The notes beneath the pieces are model-generated. The model was not told the DNA's origin and did no database searches. It saw only the letters and a program-made list of their open reading frames with translations. DNA of 52,865 nucleotides from Fusobacteriota bacterium (GTDB taxonomy: Bacteria; Bacillota; TC1), in contig WTXA01000003.1 of assembly GCA_009773805.1 (NCBI GenBank), forward strand, positions 1-52,865. Reading direction: 5' to 3'. Each line of letters starts with the position of its first letter. Within the stretch, counting starts at the first letter, position 1. The translations under genes were made by a program, and so were the position numbers. Positions 7,772 to 45,408 of this stretch are shown in pieces.

Positions 7772-8125
7772 TTGATTAAAAATATTGATAGAAAAGAAAT
7801 TCGTTCAAAGAAACATAGAAGAATAAGAAATAAAATCAGTGGAACAGCTGAATATCCAAGACTTTGTGTTTTTAGAAGCTTAAGACATATCCATGCTCAA
7901 ATCATCGATGATGTTGCACAAAATACTTTGGTTGCTGCTACATCTTTAGAAATTAAAGATGGAACTTCAAACAAGGAAACTGCTAATAGAGTTGGAAAAC
8001 TTATAGCAGAAAAAGCAATAGCAGCAGGTGTTAAAGCTGTAGTCTTCGACAGAAGCGGTTATATTTACCACGGAAGAGTACAAGCCTTGGCTGATGGAGC
8101 AAGAGAAGGCGGATTAGAATTTTAA
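7772..8125 (+). CDS. rplR: 50S ribosomal protein L18
   Basis: L18 binds 5S rRNA and brings it to the 50S subunit with L5. The 117-residue product has the basic N-terminus [18 protein letters not shown], then [19 protein letters not shown] and the ending [26 protein letters not shown]. The start is TTG at 7772 after AAAGGAG. Confidence 0.96.
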
Positions 8126-8142
8126 CCAAAGGAGGGAAAAAC

Positions 8143-8640
8143 GTGCACGCTGAAGATAAAAAACAAGAATTTACTGAAAAAGTAGTAAATATTAATAGAG
8201 TAGCTAAAGTTGTTAAAGGTGGACGCCGCTTTAGCTTTAGTGCTTTAGTAGTTATCGGCGACGGCGAAGGAAGAGTTGGCGTAGGACATGGCAAAGCCCA
8301 AGAAGTTCCTACAGCTATTAAGAAAGCCGTTGAAGACGCTAAAAAGAACATTATTCATGTGCCTATTGTTAATACAACAATTCCTCATGAAGTTGTTGGC
8401 AAATTTGGTGCTGGAGCAGTTTGGATGAAACCTGCTGCAGGTGGTACTGGAGTAATTGCAGGCGGACCTGCCCGTTCAGTTTTAGAATTAGCAGGAATAA
8501 AAAATATTTTAACAAAATCACAAGGTTCTTCAAATAAAAACAACATGGTTTATGCAACAATCGCAGGGCTTGCTTCATTGAAGAGAGCTGGAGAAGTTGC
8601 AAGACTACGTGGTAAAACTATTGAAGAACTGTGGAAATAG
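8143..8640 (+). CDS. rpsE: 30S ribosomal protein S5
   Basis: S5 acts in decoding fidelity together with S4. The 165-residue product includes [21 protein letters not shown] (an accuracy-relevant loop), [18 protein letters not shown], and the C-terminal domain with [16 protein letters not shown]. The start is GTG at 8143, nine bases after AAGGAGGG. Confidence 0.97.
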
Positions 8641-8650
8641 GAGGTCGGAC

Positions 8651-8830
8651 ATGAAAGAAGTGAAAATAACTTTAGTTAAAAGTGTCATCGGCCAAACACA
8701 AAGACAAAAAGATACAGTAAAAGCACTAGGCTTAGGTAAGATTAGTAGCACTGTAATACAAAAGATGACACCAGATATTGAAGGTAAAATTAACAAAGTA
8801 GCCCATTTGGTGAAAACAGAAGAAATATAG
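8651..8830 (+). CDS. rpmD: 50S ribosomal protein L30
   Basis: L30 is a small 50S protein. The 59-residue product begins [20 protein letters not shown] and continues [16 protein letters not shown], matching the family. I chose ATG 8651 because AGGAGG lies directly upstream (8640-8645); an open frame extends to 8597 but runs inside rpsE. The size is exactly that of bacterial L30. Confidence 0.95.
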
Positions 8831-8840
8831 GAGGGTCAGC

Positions 8841-9281
8841 ATGAAACTTCATGAATTAAGCCCTGGAATAGGAGCCAAGAAAGTTTCTAAAAGAGTCGGT
8901 AGAGGTATCGGTTCAGGAACTGGAGGGCGTTCAGGCAGAGGACAAGATGGTCAAAAGTCAAGATCTGGATATAGTCGCAGAGTCGGCTTTGAAGGTGGAC
9001 AAATGCCTTTGATTAGAAGAGTTCCTAAAAGAGGTTTTACAAATATATTCGCAAAGAATTATGCGATAGTAAATGTAGGTGCATTAAATGCATTTGAAAA
9101 TGGCTCAGTTGTAACAACTGAAGACATTCTCAGCAAAAGATTAGTAAATAAAACTTTAAGTGGAATAAAAATTCTAGGCAACGGAGAACTTACTAAAGCA
9201 CTAACTGTACAATGCGCTATTGTTAGTGAATCAGCAAAAGCTAAAATTGAAGCTGCCGGAGGAAAAGTAGAGGTAATCTAA
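8841..9281 (+). CDS. rplO: 50S ribosomal protein L15
   Basis: L15 joins the 50S subunit during assembly. The 146-residue product starts [20 protein letters not shown], with the Gly/Arg-rich segment [19 protein letters not shown], then [18 protein letters not shown] and the C-terminal [15 protein letters not shown]. It ends one base before the secY start codon. Confidence 0.97.
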
Positions 9282-9282
9282 C

Positions 9283-10560
9283 ATGTTGGAAACTGTTGTA
9301 AATGCTTTGAAAGTAAAAGAAATCAGAAGTAAGATTATCTTTACTTTATTGATACTTTTACTTGTTCGTTTCGGATCATACATACCAGTACCAGGAGTAA
9401 ACCCTGAAATATTAAGCAAAGTATTCAGTAACAATGGAATACTAAGCATTATAGATACATTTTCAGGTGGATCATTAAGCAGATTTACAATATTTGCTTT
9501 ATCTATTACTCCTTACATCAATGCTTCTATCATCATGACATTATTGACAGCAGCATTTGAAAAATTAAAAGAAATTTCCAAGGATGACCAAAACAAGATA
9601 AAACAATGGACTAGATACATGACCGTAATGTTAGCTTTAGTACAAGCTGTAGGTATTACAATTTTTATTAATTCCTACAACGCTTTCCTTGTTCCTTCTG
9701 CTTATACTTGGATTGTTAGTATCGCCACTTTGACAGCAGGAACAATGTTGTTGATGTGGTTAGGCGAACAAATAAATGAAAGAGGAATTGGAAATGGAAT
9801 ATCCTTGATAATCTTCATTGGTATTATAGCGAAGATTCCATCAAGTATTAGTACTGTGCTAGGAACTTTTGTGGGTACAGGAGATGTATTCTATAAGGAC
9901 TTGCAATTCTATTTATCTATTCTATTACCTATTACATTATTGCTAGCTGTTGTCGGAATAATTATCGTTACACAAGGTGAACGTAAAGTGCCAATACATT
10001 ATGCAAAAAAAGTAGTCGGTAGAAAAATTTATGGTGGACAAAGTAGTTTCATTCCAATGAAACTAAACCAAGCTGGAGTAATTCCAATTATCTTTGCTTC
10101 ATCAATTTTAGTACTTCCAGGAACAATAATATCAATGTTTTTTAGTGGTAGTAACGTTGCAACCTTCTTTCAGAAATGGTTAGGCGTCAACACTCCAATC
10201 TACACATTGTTTTATATCCTATTTATTATAGCCTTTACATTCTTCTATTCAATTATCGCTTTTAACATCAATGATGTAGCAGACAACTTGAAGAAAAATG
10301 GAGGTTTTATTCCAGGAATTAGACCGGGTAAACCTACAGCGGAAGCTTTTGGAAAGATATTAAACAGAATTACTCTGTTCGGTGCCTTCTTCTTAGCTCT
10401 TGTTGCAGTAATACCCAATATCCTAGGAGGCTTGGTCGGTGGAGCTTCTCTGCAATTTGGAGGAACAAGTTTATTGATTGCAGTTGGAGTTGCTTTGGAC
10501 ACTATGAAACAAATGGAGTCACAATTACTGATCAGACACTATCAAGGATTCATGAAATAA
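9283..10560 (+). CDS. secY: Protein translocase channel subunit SecY
   Basis: SecY forms the protein-conducting channel of the cytoplasmic membrane and works with SecA (encoded here at 25939). The 425-residue product has the expected ten hydrophobic segments, the plug-region sequence FSGGSLSRFTIFALSITPYI, the cytosolic loop GERKVPIHYAKKVVGRKIYGG and the ending MKQMESQLLIRHYQGFMK. Its TAA overlaps the adk ATG (TAATG at 10558-10562), so secY and adk are translationally coupled. Confidence 0.98.
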   Translation: MLETVVNALKVKEIRSKIIFTLLILLLVRFGSYIPVPGVNPEILSKVFSNNGILSIIDTFSGGSLSRFTIFALSITPYINASIIMTLLTAAFEKLKEISKDDQNKIKQWTRYMTVMLALVQAVGITIFINSYNAFLVPSAYTWIVSIATLTAGTMLLMWLGEQINERGIGNGISLIIFIGIIAKIPSSISTVLGTFVGTGDVFYKDLQFYLSILLPITLLLAVVGIIIVTQGERKVPIHYAKKVVGRKIYGGQSSFIPMKLNQAGVIPIIFASSILVLPGTIISMFFSGSNVATFFQKWLGVNTPIYTLFYILFIIAFTFFYSIIAFNINDVADNLKKNGGFIPGIRPGKPTAEAFGKILNRITLFGAFFLALVAVIPNILGGLVGGASLQFGGTSLLIAVGVALDTMKQMESQLLIRHYQGFMK

Positions 10561-34931: not shown

Positions 34932-35633
34932 ATGAATCAACCAGCAATTGTGCGTTTAGAGAATGTAACAAAAGTATACGGGAATAAGACTATTGGCTTA
35001 GATCACGTATCTACTAATATACATAAAGGGGAATTTGTATTTCTTGTCGGTGCTAGTGGTGCTGGTAAGTCAACATTTCTAAAATTGTTATTTAGAGAAG
35101 AAAAACCAACATCAGGAAAGTTGTATGTTGGAAATAAGAATATTTCTTTATTGAAAACTAAAGAATTAAACATTTTAAGGAAAAACATAGGAGTTGTCTT
35201 CCAGGATTTTAGACTATTAGAAGATAGGACAGCTTATGAAAATATAGCATATGCTATGGAAGTATTGGGATATGCAAAAAAAGATATCATGGATAGAGTA
35301 CCTAAGATTTTAAAAAAGGTAGGTATGCAACATAGACAAGAACATTATCCACAACAACTTTCAGGTGGAGAACAACAAAGAATTGCCATCGGAAGGGCTA
35401 TAATCAATTCTCCGAAAATACTTTTGGCAGATGAGCCATCAGGTAACGTTGACCCGAGTACAGCAGTTGAGATAATGGATATATTCAAAGAAATAAACAG
35501 TGTAGGCACTACTATAATTATGGCTACACATGATAGATTTATTGTTGACCAATTGGCAAAAAGAGTAATAGAACTCAAGAAGGGTCAAATAACTAGAGAC
35601 CAAGAGGGAGGAAGATATACCTATGAATCTTAA
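34932..35633 (+). CDS. ftsE: Cell division ATP-binding protein FtsE
   Basis: The ATPase of FtsEX, which controls peptidoglycan hydrolases at the division site. The 233-residue product has Walker A GASGAGKST, LLEDRTAYENIAYAMEVLG, the signature QLSGGEQQRIAIGRAI and Walker B ILLADEPSGNVDP, the family-specific form. It overlaps ftsX by 11 bases. Peptidase genes likely under its control follow directly. Confidence 0.96.
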   Translation: MNQPAIVRLENVTKVYGNKTIGLDHVSTNIHKGEFVFLVGASGAGKSTFLKLLFREEKPTSGKLYVGNKNISLLKTKELNILRKNIGVVFQDFRLLEDRTAYENIAYAMEVLGYAKKDIMDRVPKILKKVGMQHRQEHYPQQLSGGEQQRIAIGRAIINSPKILLADEPSGNVDPSTAVEIMDIFKEINSVGTTIIMATHDRFIVDQLAKRVIELKKGQITRDQEGGRYTYES

Positions 35634-36507
35634 GCAAATAGGTTATTTTTTAAAACAAGCTTTAAAAAATATGGCTAGAAACAAGGTGATGAGTTTTTCT
35701 ACAATATTAACGGTAGCGATATCATTGTTAATTGTAGGATCATTTGTTGTATTTATAGTAAATGCGGGCATGTTCATTGAAAATCAAAGTGACAAGACTC
35801 AATTATCAGTCTTTGTTGACACAACATATACACAAGAACAGGCTAAAGCTGTAGAAACCAAATTAACAGAAATTGATGGAGTAGATACTTTACTTTATAA
35901 ATCTAAAGATGAAGCATTAAAGGAAATGATTGACAAACAAGGCGGAGAATCTGGCTTGCAGGCAATTTTAGGTGAAGAAAACCCTATGCCTCATACTTTC
36001 ATCATAACAGGTACGGATAATACTAAGCTTGAAGGTATAAGTACAGTAGCAAAAACCATTGAAGGTGTATATAAGGTTGATTACGCTAAGGATTTAGCTG
36101 ATAGGTTAACAAGTATAGTTAATGCTGTTAGAGTTGGTGGTATGGTGGCTGTAGGAATATTATTTTTAATAGCAGTATTCCTTATATCTACAACAATCAA
36201 ATTAGCACTATATGCTAAAAGAAAAGAGATACAAGTTATGAAGTATGTTGGTTCATCCAATAGCTTCATTCGAGGTCCTTTCCTAGCTTCAGGAATGTTG
36301 CTAGGCTTTTTAGGTGCTTTTTTATCGTCAGTAATATTATTTGTTACCTATAAGTTTTTAATGGACTGGGCAAAAAATGTGGAATTCTTGAACTTGAGTT
36401 TCCAAAGTAGTCAAATAGCTATGATAATAGCAGGGTTGTTATTATCAGGTATACTAGTTGGTGCGGTGGGTAGTTTTATATCACTGCGCAAATATCTTGA
36501 AGTTTAA
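35623..36507 (+). CDS. ftsX: Cell division protein FtsX
   Basis: The membrane partner of FtsE. The 294-residue product starts with a cytosolic region containing ALKNMARNKVMSFSTILTVA and a first membrane segment. An extracellular domain follows at about residues 55-165 (DKTQLSVFVDTTYTQEQAKA, then EENPMPHTFIITGT), then three more membrane segments with IKLALYAKRKEIQVMKYVGS. The outer domain is the site that binds PcsB/EnvC-like coiled-coil hydrolases in other bacteria. Confidence 0.95.
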   Translation: MNLKQIGYFLKQALKNMARNKVMSFSTILTVAISLLIVGSFVVFIVNAGMFIENQSDKTQLSVFVDTTYTQEQAKAVETKLTEIDGVDTLLYKSKDEALKEMIDKQGGESGLQAILGEENPMPHTFIITGTDNTKLEGISTVAKTIEGVYKVDYAKDLADRLTSIVNAVRVGGMVAVGILFLIAVFLISTTIKLALYAKRKEIQVMKYVGSSNSFIRGPFLASGMLLGFLGAFLSSVILFVTYKFLMDWAKNVEFLNLSFQSSQIAMIIAGLLLSGILVGAVGSFISLRKYLEV

Positions 36508-36533
36508 TATTTCAAGATAAAGGGGGGAATCTT

Positions 36534-37700
36534 ATGAAGAAAATATTTAGGTTATTATTTGGAGTCTTGGTGTTAAGCGTAATTATATTGGCACCATCCA
36601 CAATGGTACAAGCTGGTTTATCTGATGAAAAGGCAGCAACTGAAAAACAAATAGAGGAATTTAAGAAAAATATTACTGAAGCCAATGGTAATCTTGAAAA
36701 AATTTTGGCACAGGTTAATATTGTTGAAAATACAATTCGTGAGATTGATGCGAAACTAGTTCAAATTAATCAAGAAATTACAGTGATTGAAGGCAATATT
36801 GTAGTTAAACAAACTGAAATAGAAAATGCAACTATTGAATATAATAAAAAGAAAGCTGTATTTTTCGATAATTTAAGAAGTAACTATGAAAAAGGTGGAG
36901 TGGATTATACTGCGGTAATTTTAGATTCTACAGATTTAACTGATTTCATAAACTATAATGAATATTTTAGAATTATCAAAGAAAAAGAAGAAGAAAAAAT
37001 TAGAGAAATTGTTGCAGCAAAACAAGCACTTGAAGTTCAAAAACAGGAGCTTATTCAAATCCAAGAAACATTAGCTGTAAAGAAGGCCGATATTGTTGCA
37101 CAGAAGAAACAACAAAGTATAGAACAACAGAAGCTTGCTTCACAGAAGGCATATTTTGCCTCACTTGCAAGTAAGTATAAGGCGGAATTAGCTAAAGAAC
37201 AAGCAGCTCTTGCAGAGATTGATAAAAAGATCCAAGAAGCCCTGGAAGCCCAGAAAAATAGTGGTGGAGGTAATGTTGTCTATACAGGCAATGGTGTATT
37301 TGCATGGCCAGTACCATCATCAAATAGAATAACAAGCCAGTATGGCTGGAGATCCAGTCCGATTTTTGGTGGTAGCGAGTTCCATAAAGGTATTGATATT
37401 AGTGCAAGTGGTGGAGCATCAATTGTCTCAGCTGAAAGCGGAGTAGTTTTAATATCATATTATTCAAGCTCATTTGGTAATACTGTAGTAGTCAACCATG
37501 GTAGCGGAATTATGACCCTTTACGCACATATGAGCTCTCGCTCAGTATCTGCTGGCCAATCTGTTTCAAAAGGCCAACATCTAGGCGGTGTGGGTAGTAC
37601 TGGTTGGAGTACAGGAAATCATCTACACTTTCAAGTTACAAACAAGAGTGATATATATAATGGGGCAGTAGACCCTAATATATATCTAAATTATAGATAA
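36534..37700 (+). CDS. Secreted coiled-coil M23 peptidase, PcsB/EnvC-like (first copy)
   Basis: A 388-residue secreted protein. The signal peptide runs to VQA at about residue 27, then a long Lys/Glu-rich coiled coil spans roughly 30-245. A C-terminal M23 (LytM) domain has the zinc ligands in FHKGIDISASGG and NHLHFQV, both intact. M23 domains cleave peptidoglycan crosslinks. Its place right after ftsX suggests activation by FtsEX through the coiled coil, as for EnvC or PcsB. It resembles the next gene over its whole length. Confidence 0.9.
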   Translation: MKKIFRLLFGVLVLSVIILAPSTMVQAGLSDEKAATEKQIEEFKKNITEANGNLEKILAQVNIVENTIREIDAKLVQINQEITVIEGNIVVKQTEIENATIEYNKKKAVFFDNLRSNYEKGGVDYTAVILDSTDLTDFINYNEYFRIIKEKEEEKIREIVAAKQALEVQKQELIQIQETLAVKKADIVAQKKQQSIEQQKLASQKAYFASLASKYKAELAKEQAALAEIDKKIQEALEAQKNSGGGNVVYTGNGVFAWPVPSSNRITSQYGWRSSPIFGGSEFHKGIDISASGGASIVSAESGVVLISYYSSSFGNTVVVNHGSGIMTLYAHMSSRSVSAGQSVSKGQHLGGVGSTGWSTGNHLHFQVTNKSDIYNGAVDPNIYLNYR

Positions 37701-37717
37701 ATTTTAAGGAGAATTGT

Positions 37718-38806
37718 ATGAAGAAAATAGTAAAGGCACTTTTAGCAGTAGTACTACTGTCATTAGTTTTCACCTTGACTACAAATAGCAAAATTGATGC
37801 TTCTTTAGCTAGTAAGAAAAAAGAAGCCGAACAAAACATTGCTAATTTTAAAAAAGAACTTGATGAATTAGAAAATCAAAGATTTGAGGTTGTTGCAAAA
37901 CTTGAAGCTGTTGAGGATGCTATTGTAAAAACTGAGAAAGAAATTCTAGAACTTGAAAAAGATCTTTTGGCCAAGGAAAAGGAATTTGAAACCGTAACAA
38001 ATAATTATAACAAACAAAAATCTCAATTCTATGAGCATCTTAGAAACAAGTATGAACAAGGTGATATTGAATATGTTTCAGTTGTTTTAGATGCAACTAA
38101 TTTAACTGAAGTTATAAACTATAATGAGTATTATAGAATTATGAAAGAAAAAGAAGCTGAGAAAATCAGTGCTATTCAAGTTATAAAAGCAAATTTAGAA
38201 GAACAGAAAAAAGCTATTGAAAACAATAAACAGATAACAATAGAACAAAAAAATAGTTTGGCAGTTGAAAGTGGAAAATTAAAGGCTGTTAAAGCAACTT
38301 ATGATGCTAGTATGGCTAATGTCAGGAAAGAACTTGCAGCTGAAGAAGCTGATAAGATTGCAATAACAAAAGAGATAGCTGCGTTAAACAGACCTGTGTC
38401 AGGTAACTATACTGGAAATGGTCGTTTACAGTGGCCAGTTCCTTCAATACCTCCTTCAACTACAAATGTTTCCGGATTCAGAACACCAAGTAGACCGACT
38501 CATAATGGATTCGATATAGGAGGTTATGGAGTTACTGGAAGACAAATTGTTGCTGCTGATGGTGGTGAAGTAATATTAGCTAAAAGTTATTCAGGTTATG
38601 GCAATGCTGTAATCATCGACCATAATAATGGAATGATGACACTTTATGGACACTTAGCAAGCGATAGTGTGAGTGTAGGACAAACAGTAAGCCGTGGACA
38701 AGTTATTGGAATAATGGGGAATACTGGACAAAGTTCAGGTATACACTTACATATTGAGGTTATTATTAATGGGGTTCATGTTAATCCAGCCCCATATATT
38801 AGATAG
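37718..38806 (+). CDS. Secreted coiled-coil M23 peptidase, PcsB/EnvC-like (second copy)
   Basis: A 362-residue paralogue of the previous protein: signal peptide to about IDA at residue 29, coiled coil to about 225, then an M23 domain with THNGFDIGGYG and GIHLHIEV. The shared coiled-coil landmark is INYNEYYRIMKEKEAEKI here and INYNEYFRIIKEKEEEKI in the first copy, so a tandem duplication is likely. Zinc ligands are intact, and both may work under FtsEX. Confidence 0.9.
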   Translation: MKKIVKALLAVVLLSLVFTLTTNSKIDASLASKKKEAEQNIANFKKELDELENQRFEVVAKLEAVEDAIVKTEKEILELEKDLLAKEKEFETVTNNYNKQKSQFYEHLRNKYEQGDIEYVSVVLDATNLTEVINYNEYYRIMKEKEAEKISAIQVIKANLEEQKKAIENNKQITIEQKNSLAVESGKLKAVKATYDASMANVRKELAAEEADKIAITKEIAALNRPVSGNYTGNGRLQWPVPSIPPSTTNVSGFRTPSRPTHNGFDIGGYGVTGRQIVAADGGEVILAKSYSGYGNAVIIDHNNGMMTLYGHLASDSVSVGQTVSRGQVIGIMGNTGQSSGIHLHIEVIINGVHVNPAPYIR

Positions 38807-38815
38807 GAGAATTAT

Positions 38816-39577
38816 TTGAGTAAGATTAAGATAGTGAGTATTGTATTTTTGCTTTTTATTTTCAGTTTAGGAATAGGTTTTACTGGCTTAAATTCAAACA
38901 GTATACAAGCAGATGAGCTTAAGAACAAACAAGTGAAATTGGCAGAAGAGATTATTAAATCAATAAAATTCCAAAAAGAAATACAAAATGAATTGGAAAC
39001 TATTAAAAACAAACAACAGGGAAATCCTGATGATTTGAATATTGATTTAACGCTAGAAAAAACTTTTCAAAAGACTTTGGAAAATCTACAAATACAATTA
39101 CTGAAGGACAAGATGGAGTTCCAACTTGTCAATCAACAACTATTGAGCGTTGGACAAACAGCAGCGTTACCTTATTTGGGTGATGGTTCTTATGTATGGC
39201 CTGTTGATGGTTATTTCAATGTTTCACAAGGATATAGTGGTAGACATAAAGGTGTTGATATTAACACCTTGGGTGCACACCCTAGTGTTTTTGCTGTGCA
39301 AACTGGAATAGTTACTAAAGCAATGGACGAAGGTGACGGTTTCGGAAACAAGGTAGTAATTTATCATGGTGAAAATAAATATACATTATATGCACATCTG
39401 GACACCATAAAAGCTAAAGTTGGTCAATATATTGATGAAGGAACCGTGCTTGGAACTGTAGGAAATACAGGAAATAGTGATGGGGATCATCTACATATAC
39501 AACTTACTTTTAGTGGTGATGTAGAAAATAACACAATTAACCCATGGGATTATATTAAATCAGCGGAGAAGAAATAG
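38816..39577 (+). CDS. Secreted M23 peptidase, short form (third copy)
   Basis: A 253-residue secreted protein with a signal peptide ending near IQA (about residue 32), a short helical stretch of roughly 80 residues, and an M23 domain with RHKGVDINTLG and GDHLHIQL. All zinc ligands are present. It lacks the long coiled coil of its two neighbours, so direct FtsX control is less certain. The start is TTG 38816 after TAGGAG. Confidence 0.87.
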   Translation: MSKIKIVSIVFLLFIFSLGIGFTGLNSNSIQADELKNKQVKLAEEIIKSIKFQKEIQNELETIKNKQQGNPDDLNIDLTLEKTFQKTLENLQIQLLKDKMEFQLVNQQLLSVGQTAALPYLGDGSYVWPVDGYFNVSQGYSGRHKGVDINTLGAHPSVFAVQTGIVTKAMDEGDGFGNKVVIYHGENKYTLYAHLDTIKAKVGQYIDEGTVLGTVGNTGNSDGDHLHIQLTFSGDVENNTINPWDYIKSAEKK

Positions 39578-39578
39578 A

Positions 39579-40757
39579 TTGAATAAATTAAAAAAAGTTG
39601 CCAAAATTATATTTAAGATAGTGATAGTGATATTTGCATTAATTGGAATAACTTCTACAGTATTAATTTCTAATCTAATTAAAACACCAAAGGAATTATT
39701 AACAGCTATAAGTACTTATCAATTAATAGTTTCTCGTTTCTATATGAATGTCAATAATAATGACTTAATAGAAGGCATTTCTAAAGGGATGGCTTCTTCA
39801 TTGAACGATCCATATTCTATATATTATACGAAAGAAGAAATGATTGAGTTCAATACACAATTGAATGGTATCTATGCTGGTATAGGTATGGTACTTGGAT
39901 TGGACAAAGATACTAATCTAATAAAAGGTATTAGAATATTCAAGGGATCTCCAGCAGAAAAAGCAGGTCTGTTACCAGGTGATATAATTATAGAAATTGA
40001 TGGAAAGTCTGCTGAAGGTATGGACACAGAAACTGTAGCAGTAAATGTAAAAGGACTAGAGGGTACGAAAGTAAAACTAGTAATATTTAGAGGAAATGAG
40101 TACTTAGATTTTGAAATTACTAGGGAAGTAATACAAGTGCCTTCTGTAACTAGCAAGTTTATAAATGAAGAGACCTTATATATTGAAATAACATCATTTA
40201 ATGAAAATACCACTAAGGAATTTAGGAATATGTTAAGTGGTCTTGAAAAAGAACCTCAAAACATAATTTTAGATTTAAGAAACAATGGTGGAGGTCTTTT
40301 AGATCAAGCTATTGAATTGGCTCGATACTTTACACCAGGTGGTGTGGTCTTATATGAAACAGGTCGTAATCAGAAGGATTTACTGCCTTTTGTAGTAGAT
40401 AGTAGCCTCTTTTTAAATAAGCCATTAGTAGTATTAGTTAATGAAAATTCAGCTAGTGCCTCTGAGGTCTTAGCCGGAGCAATTCAGGACTATAAGTCAG
40501 GAACCTTGATTGGTGACAATACTTTTGGTAAAGCTGTGGTACAATCTATATATTCCTTACCTACAGGGGGAGCACTTAAATTAACTACAGAAAGATACTT
40601 AACACCAAATAAAAGGGACCTAAGTAAGGAAGGGCTAACACCTGACGTAAAAATATTAATGACCGAAGAAGATTATATGAAAATTGATTATACAGCTTTA
40701 CCAGATATTAAAAATGATCTGCAGTTGATAGAAGCTATTAATTACTTTAACAAATAG
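39579..40757 (+). CDS. CtpA-type S41 carboxy-terminal processing protease
   Basis: A 392-residue membrane-anchored serine protease. One N-terminal hydrophobic segment is followed by a PDZ domain with FKGSPAEKAGLLPGDIIIEI (about residues 124-143), then the S41 domain with DLRNNGGGLLDQAIELA. The catalytic serine is likely S293 in SASASE, paired with K318 in GKAVVQ. Such proteases trim envelope proteins and can regulate hydrolases, in line with its neighbours. The start is TTG 39579, one base after the previous stop. Confidence 0.92.
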   Translation: MNKLKKVAKIIFKIVIVIFALIGITSTVLISNLIKTPKELLTAISTYQLIVSRFYMNVNNNDLIEGISKGMASSLNDPYSIYYTKEEMIEFNTQLNGIYAGIGMVLGLDKDTNLIKGIRIFKGSPAEKAGLLPGDIIIEIDGKSAEGMDTETVAVNVKGLEGTKVKLVIFRGNEYLDFEITREVIQVPSVTSKFINEETLYIEITSFNENTTKEFRNMLSGLEKEPQNIILDLRNNGGGLLDQAIELARYFTPGGVVLYETGRNQKDLLPFVVDSSLFLNKPLVVLVNENSASASEVLAGAIQDYKSGTLIGDNTFGKAVVQSIYSLPTGGALKLTTERYLTPNKRDLSKEGLTPDVKILMTEEDYMKIDYTALPDIKNDLQLIEAINYFNK

Positions 40758-40805: not shown

Positions 40806-42779
40806 TTGGAACAATTAGATAAATTTGATTTAGTATCAGACTTTAAACCAGCAGGTGATCAACCTGAAGCAATAAAATCCTTAGTAAAGGGACTATTAGA
40901 AGGTCATGTGCATCAGACTTTACTTGGTGTAACAGGTAGCGGAAAGACTTTTACCATGGCAAATATTATTGCTGAAGTTAATAAACCAACTTTAATAATG
41001 GCCCCAAATAAAACTTTAGCAGCTCAATTATGTAGTGAATTTAAAGAATTTTTTCCTAACAATGCTGTTGAATTTTTTGTAAGTTACTATGACTATTATC
41101 AACCTGAAGCCTACATACCGAATTCTGATACCTACATTTCAAAGGACAGCGCAATAAATGACGAAATAGATAAATTAAGACACTCGGCAACATCTGCTCT
41201 ATTTGAAAGAAGGGATGTTATTATTGTTGCTAGTGTATCCTGCATATATGGACTTGGATCACCAGATGATTATAAGACTATGCTTTTATCGATTAGAGAA
41301 GGACAAAATATCTCTAGAGATGAAATAGTTAGTAAACTTGTTGACATACAATATACAAGAAATGATATAAATTTCATAAGAAACACCTTTAGACTTAGAG
41401 GTGATGTGATTGAAATAATTCCAGCAAGCCTATCAGAACAAGGCTATAGAATTGAGTTGTTTGGCGATGAGATAGAAAAAATTCTAGAATTTGATATCTT
41501 GACTGGTGAGGTCTTAGGTAATCTCAAACATTTGGCTGTTTTTCCAGCTAGCCACTATATTGTTTCTGAAGAAAAGCTTAATAGAGCAATAGATAATATT
41601 AGGATAGAATTAGTCGATAGATTGAAATATTTTAAAGAAAACAACAAATTAGTTGAAGCACAAAGACTTGAAGAAAGAACTATGCATGATTTAGAGATGA
41701 TACAAGAAATTGGACATTGTTCTGGCATAGAAAATTACTCAAGACATTTAACAGGCAAAGAAGATGGTGAGATGCCAAATACCTTAATTGACTATTTCCC
41801 TGATGATTTCTTAATTTTTGCTGATGAGTCTCATGTAACCATTCCTCAAGTTGGTGGCATGTATGCAGGAGACAGATCGAGAAAACAAGTATTAGTTGAT
41901 TATGGGTTTAGACTTCCTTCAGCACTTGATAACAGACCTTTGTCATTTCAAGAATTTGAAGGAAAAATAAATCAGATAATTTACACTTCTGCAACACCTG
42001 GCAAATATGAACTTGAACATAGTAGTAACTTCGTGCAACAAATTATCCGACCAACAGGTCTTTTAGACCCAGAATTAGAAGTTAGACCAACTAAACATCA
42101 AGTGGATGATTTGCAGGAAGAGATTAACAAGAGGATAATAAAAAAGGAGAGGGTACTTGTTACAACCCTTACTATAAAAATGGCAGAAGATTTAACTGCT
42201 TATTTTGAAAATACAGGATTAAAAGTCAGATATTTACATAGCGAAGTAAAAACCTTGGAACGCATGGAAATAATCAGGGATTTAAGACTTGGAGTTTTTG
42301 ACGTGCTAATAGGTATCAATCTCTTAAGGGAAGGCCTAGACTTACCAGAAGTATCATTAGTAGCAATACTTGATGCAGACAAGGAAGGTTTCTTAAGATC
42401 AGAAAGGTCTTTAATTCAGACCATAGGTCGTGCAGCAAGAAACAGTTCAGGAAAGGTTATCCTTTATGGTGACAAAATTACAGATTCAATGGCAAAAGCT
42501 ATTGAAGAAACAAATCGCAGAAGAAAGATTCAAGATGAATTCAATCAAAAAAATAACATAGTGCCAAAAACAATTATCAAGAATGTTAGAGATATTTTAG
42601 AGATAACTTACAAAGGGGATCAAGCTGATAGAAAACCAGCAGCTAAATTGAAGAAAAAAGAAATGTTAGCTATGATCAAGAATCTTGAAAAGGAAATGGC
42701 TATTAAAGCTAAGGATATGAAGTTTGAAGAAGCCGCAGAACTAAGAGATTTAATATTTGAATTAAAAACTAATTTATAG
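40806..42779 (+). CDS. uvrB: Excinuclease ABC subunit B
   Basis: The damage-verifying helicase of nucleotide excision repair. The 657-residue product has [14 protein letters not shown], Walker A GVTGSGKT (residues 41-48), the beta-hairpin [12 protein letters not shown] that locks onto the damaged strand, DESHVTIPQ, and GRAARN. The UvrC-binding UVR motif is at the end ([15 protein letters not shown]). It starts with TTG 40806 after AGGAGG. No uvrA or uvrC is nearby, and no promoter is visible between the preceding terminator and the start. Confidence 0.97.
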
Positions 42780-42801
42780 TAGAAGAGATATCTGATATAA
42801 T
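42773..42801 (+). promoter_or_regulatory. Extended -10 promoter before the LtaS-like gene
   Basis: TGATATAAT (42793-42801) is an extended -10 with a perfect TATAAT; TTTATA lies 17 bases upstream (42773-42778), overlapping the uvrB stop. Transcription would start about 12 bases before the ATG at 42821, leaving a very short leader. Confidence 0.5.
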
Positions 42802-42820: not shown

Positions 42821-44578
42821 ATGAGAAAAAATATAGGATATGTAAAAAAAACGAGATTAAAAACTAAAGCAGGTAGTAAGCGTAGAGTGAACGGAAATTT
42901 ACCAAAAGCACTTTGGTTTATTTATCCTGCATTATATATTTTTGTCATCCAGTTTCTTGCTTTTGGTAGTGTTATAAAAGGTTTTCTTAATACGGTTATG
43001 AATCCATATACTTTCTTACTATCCTATTTGATAATTACTGGCTTTTCTTTAGTCCTTTGGTTATTTTTTGAAAATAGATGGGTTAGTTTTTCTGTGCTAA
43101 ATTTATTCGGAATAATTATTGCACTAGGAAATAGGTTTACTATACCCCAAGGAGAAACAGGTCTTGCTTTTAACAATCTTGGAATATTCAATGAACTAGG
43201 ATTGATACAGAATGCAAATATAAGTGCTTTCATTCCCTTTATAATTATGCTTGTTATATTTATGCCTATACTATATATTTGTATATATTTTATGCATCAG
43301 TGGAAAGTAGGATTAAAGTATAGAAAAACTGTAGCAGCTGTTGCATTTATAGTATTTATGATATTTTCTCAATTAATTGTACCCTTTATATCTACCTCAA
43401 GGACAACCTTAGTAAATATAGATAAATTAGGAGTAATAGTATTTTTCAATAACGGCTTTTTCGGTAAGGATAATATTAAATATCCTGATAAAAGTGAAAT
43501 AGATGCAATAATGAAAAAAGTTGAGATCAAAAAAGATCAACCTATAACCAAACCAAATATTATAATGTTACAACTTACTAATTTTGTAGATATAGAAAGG
43601 GTTATGAATATAAAAGTCGATGCATTGAATAATTATAACAATACATTTACAGAAGCATCAAGATTTATATTAGATTTATCTGCAAAACAAAGTGATAATC
43701 TAAATACTGAATTTGAAGTGCTTGCAGGTTTACCAATTGAATTTCACCCGAATGAGTTTCAAGTAAGAGCCGGCAATACTAGTGAGGGAACTATAAGTTT
43801 AGGCGGTATATTGTCAAAGCAAGGTTATGACAGTTTAAGCATATTACCTTATGCGAAAAATGATCGCAATGATTTCTATAAGAAACTTAGTTTTGACAAA
43901 TTTATCAGTGAAGAGGATTTAGGTAAAGGAACTTCAAATGAAGTTCTATCAGAAATCAAAAAGCAATTAACAAATTCAACAGAAAAGAATAAACCTGTTT
44001 TCATTTATTCACACTTGAATGTTCTAGAAAGCAAGTATGAAGAGAATACAATTGATAAATATTTGCAAGATTTAAAATCTTTAGATGATCAATTAGCGGT
44101 TTTATATCAAATAGTATTAGATACTAAGGAACCTACAATTGTACTTTTATATAGTGACAATATACCAACATTAGGCGTTGAGAATAAATTGTATTACGAT
44201 TCTGGGTATTTGGGAACTCAAGATTCTAATATGGAGTTGAAACAAAAGGTTAATAGTGGAGATATGATGATTTGGGATAACTACAATCAAGGCTCAAATT
44301 ATGCAAATGGAGAAACATTTGATTTATGTAGTATTCCATATCTGTTATTAAGTGAAGTCGATTATCCAATGCCAAATTATCTTCAGTATTTCCAATATTT
44401 AAAAGATAATATGAGATTGTCTCGTATAAGTTCTGATTATTTAGAATTAAGCAATGTGTTATTTGATAAGGATACTGATGAGTATAAAAGTTTGACTAAA
44501 GAGCTTTCGGTAATTGTCAAAGATATATTGGGGCCCTATAAACATGTAGAGGAGAACTTAAAGCTATGGTCCAAGTAA
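42821..44578 (+). CDS. LtaS-like membrane sulfatase-fold protein, probably catalytically inactive
   Basis: The 585-residue product has a basic N-terminus, five hydrophobic segments up to about residue 195, then a soluble domain arranged like lipoteichoic acid synthase. The positions that hold metal and catalysis in that family seem replaced. The glutamate of the NESF/LES motif is Thr253 (LQLTNFVD). The nucleophile threonine, four residues before EFE, is Asn293 (SDNLNTEFEVLAG). The GDH motif reads SDN, with Asn447 for His. Only Asp446 remains. Family conclusion is from motif order; inactivity is inferred. It overlaps ispE by 13 bases. Confidence 0.75.
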   Translation: MRKNIGYVKKTRLKTKAGSKRRVNGNLPKALWFIYPALYIFVIQFLAFGSVIKGFLNTVMNPYTFLLSYLIITGFSLVLWLFFENRWVSFSVLNLFGIIIALGNRFTIPQGETGLAFNNLGIFNELGLIQNANISAFIPFIIMLVIFMPILYICIYFMHQWKVGLKYRKTVAAVAFIVFMIFSQLIVPFISTSRTTLVNIDKLGVIVFFNNGFFGKDNIKYPDKSEIDAIMKKVEIKKDQPITKPNIIMLQLTNFVDIERVMNIKVDALNNYNNTFTEASRFILDLSAKQSDNLNTEFEVLAGLPIEFHPNEFQVRAGNTSEGTISLGGILSKQGYDSLSILPYAKNDRNDFYKKLSFDKFISEEDLGKGTSNEVLSEIKKQLTNSTEKNKPVFIYSHLNVLESKYEENTIDKYLQDLKSLDDQLAVLYQIVLDTKEPTIVLLYSDNIPTLGVENKLYYDSGYLGTQDSNMELKQKVNSGDMMIWDNYNQGSNYANGETFDLCSIPYLLLSEVDYPMPNYLQYFQYLKDNMRLSRISSDYLELSNVLFDKDTDEYKSLTKELSVIVKDILGPYKHVEENLKLWSK

Positions 44579-45408
44579 AAGCTTATGGAAAAATCAATCT
44601 AACACTTGAGGTTTTAGGACTCCGAGATGATAGCTATCATGAAATAAGAAGTATAATGCAAAATATTGAACTTCATGATATTTTAAGCTTTGAAAGTAGC
44701 CGTGATGAATTCATTCACCTTTCCGGTAATAATAATAAATTAAAATATGATAAGAACAATCTAATATACAAAGCTGCGATAGCTTTAAAAAGCCATACAA
44801 AAACTGCGTTTGGAGCCAATATCTATTTAGAGAAAAATATACCAATAGAAGCTGGTTTGGCTGGAGGTAGTGCAGATGCTGCTGCTACATTAAAAGGTTT
44901 GAATAATTTATGGAAGCTAGATTTACCAATGGCTGAATTATTAGTTATAGGAGCTAGGATTGGTTCTGATGTACCTTTTTGCTTGCTTGGAGATACAGCT
45001 TTAGTTGAAGGCAGGGGAGAAAAAGTAACTGATTTGAAATCACCAGTCATGGAAAAGTTACTGGTAGTTAAGCCTGATTTTGGTGCAAGCACAAAATTGA
45101 TATATCAAAAATTCGACGAAATATTTATGGGGAATGCCCCCAATTATACAGATCAGATGATTAAATCGATAGAAAATCATGGTGACTATAAAAAATATTT
45201 ATACAATGATTTGGAAATGATAACTACAAAGCTCTATCCAGAGGTGCAGTCGATACTCGATACGATGGGTGAAAAGTGTGAATTTGTTATGATGAGTGGT
45301 AGTGGGCCGACCTGTTTTGCTTTTGGTAACGATGATTCAATAAATTCACTTTATGATACTTTCAAGGCAAAATATGTTGATGTGTATATTACATCCTTTA
45401 AACAGTAG
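44566..45408 (+). CDS. ispE: 4-diphosphocytidyl-2-C-methyl-D-erythritol kinase
   Basis: The GHMP kinase step of the non-mevalonate isoprenoid pathway. The 280-residue product has AYGKINLTLEVLGLRDDSYH, the ATP-binding IPIEAGLAGGSADAAATLKG, RIGSDVPFCL and the C-terminal MMSGSGPTCFAFG. Its first codons lie inside the end of the preceding gene. No other pathway gene is in the window. Confidence 0.95.
   Translation: MVQVKAYGKINLTLEVLGLRDDSYHEIRSIMQNIELHDILSFESSRDEFIHLSGNNNKLKYDKNNLIYKAAIALKSHTKTAFGANIYLEKNIPIEAGLAGGSADAAATLKGLNNLWKLDLPMAELLVIGARIGSDVPFCLLGDTALVEGRGEKVTDLKSPVMEKLLVVKPDFGASTKLIYQKFDEIFMGNAPNYTDQMIKSIENHGDYKKYLYNDLEMITTKLYPEVQSILDTMGEKCEFVMMSGSGPTCFAFGNDDSINSLYDTFKAKYVDVYITSFKQ

Follow-up and report, generated by a model that had tools for sequence, protein, structure and literature searches.

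The gene at 42821-44578 on the forward strand of the window (the whole stretch of 52,865 nucleotides analyzed) encodes a relative of the lipoteichoic acid synthase LtaS and of GacH in which the fold is the same, the catalytic site is destroyed and the gene is retained. Alignment, six orthologs, a tree, selection estimates and a structure model support this reading, and the protein is, judging by its sequence, very probably devoid of catalytic activity. It appears to be a family-specific pseudoenzyme that may act as a non-catalytic partner or ligand-binding regulator of active transferases, a role to which we give about even chances. The ORF lies between uvrB and ispE, starts with ATG, includes its stop codon within these coordinates and is read through without a single internal stop, and the frame of 585 residues is thus intact, as the preliminary description had it.

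The catalytic site of Listeria LtaS comprises Glu263, Thr307, His353, Trp360, Arg362, His422, Asp481 and His482 (PMC4192460). Six of these eight residues are gone in the alignment, where the counterparts are, in the same order, T253, N293, L342, a deletion, R349, a non-His residue in the old QNH motif, D446 and N447. Only D446 is left of the Thr nucleophile and Glu/Asp/His metal ligands that mark a catalytic LtaS, and only R349 of the phosphate-binding His/Trp/Arg/His set. A destroyed active site had been proposed in the preliminary description from the substitutions at positions 253, 293 and 447. These substitutions and their numbering are right by alignment to the active paralogs, in which Q251-L-T253-N-F corresponds to QSESF, S291-D-N293-L-N-T-E-F-E to GGTANTEFE and Y444-S-D446-N447 to YGDH. 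The loss is wider than proposed, with H342L, the deletion of the Trp/Tyr two residues before R349 and the loss of the QNH His to be added, L342 and the Trp position being mapped less surely than the others because both adjoin an alignment gap.

Among the orthologs, the former Glu metal ligand (T253, 43577-43579, forward strand, as for the other sites and domains and for ispE, uvrB and the promoter element below) is T, P or S, the former Thr nucleophile (N293, 43697-43699) is N or S and the former phosphate-binding His (L342, 43844-43846, Listeria His-353) is L, T or M. In the former GDH motif (S445-D446-N447, 44153-44161), D446 is kept in four of the six proteins and becomes S and E in the two most distant ones, which leaves R349 (43865-43867) as the sole catalytic-site residue kept in all six. 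Neither the former nucleophile loop (residues 288-293) nor the GDH motif has a fixed replacement, both differing from ortholog to ortholog, and the flanks of the loop (L294-N295-x-E297-x-E299) are fixed; structural residues are also kept (F255, D257, E297, E299, G303, F358, D422, P449, W485, N487). Variable catalytic loops together with conserved structural residues are the pattern expected if catalysis was lost and the fold remained under selection. Sequencing error is rejected as the cause, since the same losses occur in six separate assemblies.

Could the protein still be an enzyme, with other residues of the old pocket or its surroundings carrying out an altered chemistry? R349 is invariant, D446 persists in four proteins and new residues (L252, N254, D285, L294, E307, Q314, S340) are fixed in all six, which would fit such a pocket. 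Altered ligands need not mean zero activity either, to judge from the analogy of YejM, which is reported to keep Thr at the nucleophile position and to have Mg phosphatase activity despite its altered site (PMC7576196). However, no Thr, His or Cys is invariant anywhere among the six ortholog proteins, and there is therefore no conserved substitute catalytic set; with the drift of the nucleophile loop and GDH motif, this makes a surviving enzyme distinctly improbable.

The pseudoenzyme has orthologs in four other genomes of the genus and in the one other genus of the same family in the genome set (genome G005), giving six proteins, all from one small family, with an intact frame down to about 32% identity. 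In a 41-sequence tree the six, which share the residue loss, form a single clade (100/100), and this clade is grouped with two active tandem clades (100/99). The corresponding active-type paralogs of the same genome are found on another contig (C4; L033:6114-7835 and 7849-9702), where they keep the SES, GGT, QNH and GDH motifs. A penicillin-binding-protein gene directly precedes the two transferases (L033:3737-9702) and a gatB-like gene lies on their other side, and the pair is present in all five genus genomes. The metal and nucleophile residues are kept in 14 active-type homologs and in 24 of 24 loci from outside the family, the latter being the best profile matches in a 398-genome sample of the phylum (three of them repeat the 14). 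No pseudo copy from outside the family occurs among these best-match loci, and the other family of the class (ten genomes in total in the set) yielded no ortholog. The genome set searched represents about half of known prokaryote species; a scan of the collection turned up only three members of the genus, and three relatives are metagenome assemblies. A distant LtaS-type relative in genome G009 (L100:1240-3279) carries LSSDHFP, with SDH replacing GDH, possibly another altered site.

The simplest history on these sequences would be a duplication within the family of a phosphoglycerol transferase of the LtaS/GacH type, after which catalysis was lost once, at the root of the clade and earlier than the split between the family's two genera. 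Two acidic residues shared by all active proteins are changed in the genus proteins only (E44 to Q, D119 to N) and are both kept in the G005 ortholog, which suggests that the loss may have been stepwise.

In each of the six genomes the pseudoenzyme gene is followed by ispE and then by a spoVG-like gene. The ispE ORF (44566-45408), the downstream neighbor in each of them, overlaps that of the pseudoenzyme by 13 bp (44566-44578), and the junction ranges from this 13-bp overlap to a 17-bp gap. On the other side, uvrB (40806-42779) is the upstream neighbor in the five genus genomes and not in G005. The gene had been described as having its own extended -10 promoter, and TGATATAAT is indeed found at 42793-42801, in the 41-bp gap after uvrB; TGNTATA(A/C)T recurs at about the same spot, within the short gap after uvrB, in four species of the genus (G000, G003, G001, G004). 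A general promoter scan gave 10 sites against 12.0 in shuffles, which is not above chance, and the argument for a promoter hence rests on the conservation of TGNTATA(A/C)T in the four species.

Is the gene a functionless relic on its way to loss? Its evolution is faster than that of active paralog B, which would suit such a relic. Across four close species, NG86 dN/dS values, rough because dS is near or above 1, are 0.13-0.22 for the pseudoenzyme, 0.09-0.16 for ispE, 0.11-0.22 for active paralog A and 0.07-0.10 for paralog B. The gene is thus well below 1 and similar to its neighbor ispE. The intact frame in six genomes of two genera and the largely conserved -10 element and ispE junction likewise speak against decay. 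A true relic is available for comparison in G005, where an active-type LtaS-like copy (contig C1, about 155,700-157,100; L040:7717-9095; VVFYGDHQP) is broken into short frame-shifted pieces, next to an intact pseudoenzyme and an intact active gene elsewhere in the genome; unneeded copies in this family do decay. The relic reading is thereby largely contradicted already and very improbable, and a recent pseudogene is ruled out by the retention of frame and gene order in six genomes, the dN/dS values and the contrast with the broken copy. The suggestion that the gene is retained rather than decaying therefore holds, and, as defines a pseudoenzyme, the loss of catalytic residues is common to orthologs under purifying selection.

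The layout anticipated for the protein, a membrane domain followed by a sulfatase fold as in LtaS, is borne out. An AlphaFold model (AF2) built on a 20-sequence alignment (pLDDT 82.4, pTM 0.75) has five long helices in the membrane and, after them, an alpha/beta ectodomain. According to the AF2 helices and hydropathy, the membrane domain covers residues 27-191 (42899-43393), with long helices at 27-48, 62-83, 86-107, 134-156 and 168-191 and a short extra helix at 51-60. It is preceded by a basic N-terminal tail, predicted to be cytoplasmic (residues 1-26, 42821-42898), in which Y7-V8-K9-K10 and K16 are invariant in all six orthologs; the YVKK motif is absent from the active paralogs. The only Pfam match above the cut-off, PF00884 (Sulfatase), covers just the C-terminal part (residues 295-488, E 3.9e-9). 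In Foldseek searches of the PDB the top matches are B. subtilis LtaS (2w8d, 1.6e-11), GacH (4.2e-11) and Listeria LtaS (4.2e-11), ruling out a different fold. As a control, an active paralog was modeled too (pLDDT 84.4), and its matches fall in the same families at better E-values (GacH 3.4e-18, LtaS 1.1e-16, PbgA 4.5e-11), which indicates that the fold assignment is right and that the pseudoenzyme has diverged further from the fold. A single-sequence search of the PDB returned only chance matches (chloramphenicol acetyltransferases), so that profiles are needed. There is no sign of a viral origin, the Foldseek matches among viral proteins being confined to weak ones with giant-virus sulfatases and phosphatases.

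The LtaS proteins of S. aureus, B. subtilis and L. monocytogenes (PDB 2w5q, 2w8d, 4uor) share with the pseudoenzyme the five-helix membrane domain and the sulfatase-fold ectodomain, at about 16% identity in structural alignment. By sequence profile, however, the nearest solved structure is S. pyogenes GacH rather than LtaS (7.5e-5; PDB 5u9z, 6dgm), a phosphoglycerol transferase that, unlike the pseudoenzyme, has SES, GGT, QNH and GDH intact in the alignment. The pseudoenzyme has no NCBIfam match, the LtaS equivalog model NF053595 included. "LtaS-like" is thus to be understood as the wider LtaS/GacH phosphoglycerol-transferase type.

A second family with this fold is PbgA/YejM (PDB 6xlp, 6v8q, 6vat), likewise with a five-helix membrane domain and a pseudo-hydrolase domain of the sulfatase type, described as a regulatory lipid sensor (PMC13125744), although it is disputed whether it is itself an enzyme (PMC7576196). 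The pseudoenzyme could be the Gram-positive-type counterpart of PbgA/YejM, sensing a membrane glycolipid or a phosphatidylglycerol-derived lipid and signaling across the membrane to an early surface-polymer enzyme. The common layout and a Foldseek match to full-length PbgA (5.7e-9) agree with this. That match reaches a TM-score of only about 0.39, however, and the E-value of PbgA with the active paralog is no worse, which points to a shared fold and not to a shared function. Identity is about 11%, and the Thr reported at the nucleophile position of YejM (PMC7576196) has no equivalent in the pseudoenzyme. DUF3413 has no match in the pseudoenzyme or in three orthologs, and LpxC (PF03331) is absent from ten genomes of the order, with a positive E. 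coli control; these two results rule out membership of PbgA itself, and a functional counterpart is improbable. Decidedly unlikely as well is that a PbgA-like principle arose separately in Bacillota, in which a dead phosphoglycerol transferase would sense a surface-polymer lipid or product and control active transferases or an early envelope step, with the YVKK tail as output.

Upstream of uvrB, positions 34932-40757 of the window hold a row of ftsE, ftsX, three M23 peptidases and a CtpB-type S41 protease, which is likely a cell-wall hydrolase control cluster; the first M23 peptidase has a weak PcsB-type coiled-coil match. The main rival to a role beside active transferases, though an unlikely one, is a membrane scaffold or division-associated protein that would be unrelated to glycerophosphate polymers and reuse only the fold. 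The genus locus comes after this row, the basic tail is conserved and the old pocket is degenerate, all of which would suit such a protein. In G005, by contrast, uvrB and the genes before it do not adjoin the gene, which yet retains ispE and the spoVG-like gene, so that proximity to the division cluster is not required.

What, then, may a catalytically dead transferase do? For the pseudoenzyme, a binding or regulatory role may reasonably be proposed. The idea of a partner or regulator of active transferases follows from the loss of the site with both domains kept, from a basic N-terminal tail specific to the clade and from co-occurrence, since the active tandem-B transferase is also carried by all six of the related genomes that encode the pseudoenzyme. 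The location of the active paralogs on another contig means that there is no operon link. The protein keeps both its five membrane helices and a folded domain outside the cell, and the Thr-nucleophile, Mn/Mg-dependent mechanism is very probably closed to it. In the proposed mode of action, the extracellular pseudo-domain would bind the active enzymes or else the lipid or polymer that they produce, and the conserved basic YVKK tail would dock or report on the cytoplasmic side. DltD was not found in the order, and D-alanylated LTA is thus unsupported.

LtaS-type enzymes make important surface polymers in many Gram-positive bacteria. We found no Gram-positive pseudo-LtaS described in the open-access literature. 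A conserved, catalytically dead relative of LtaS is a specific candidate for a control element that works without catalysis, for which the same superfamily offers a precedent in the Gram-negative PbgA/YejM, a pseudo-hydrolase acting as a lipid sensor. If this is true, the fold would have given rise to a non-catalytic component on more than one occasion.
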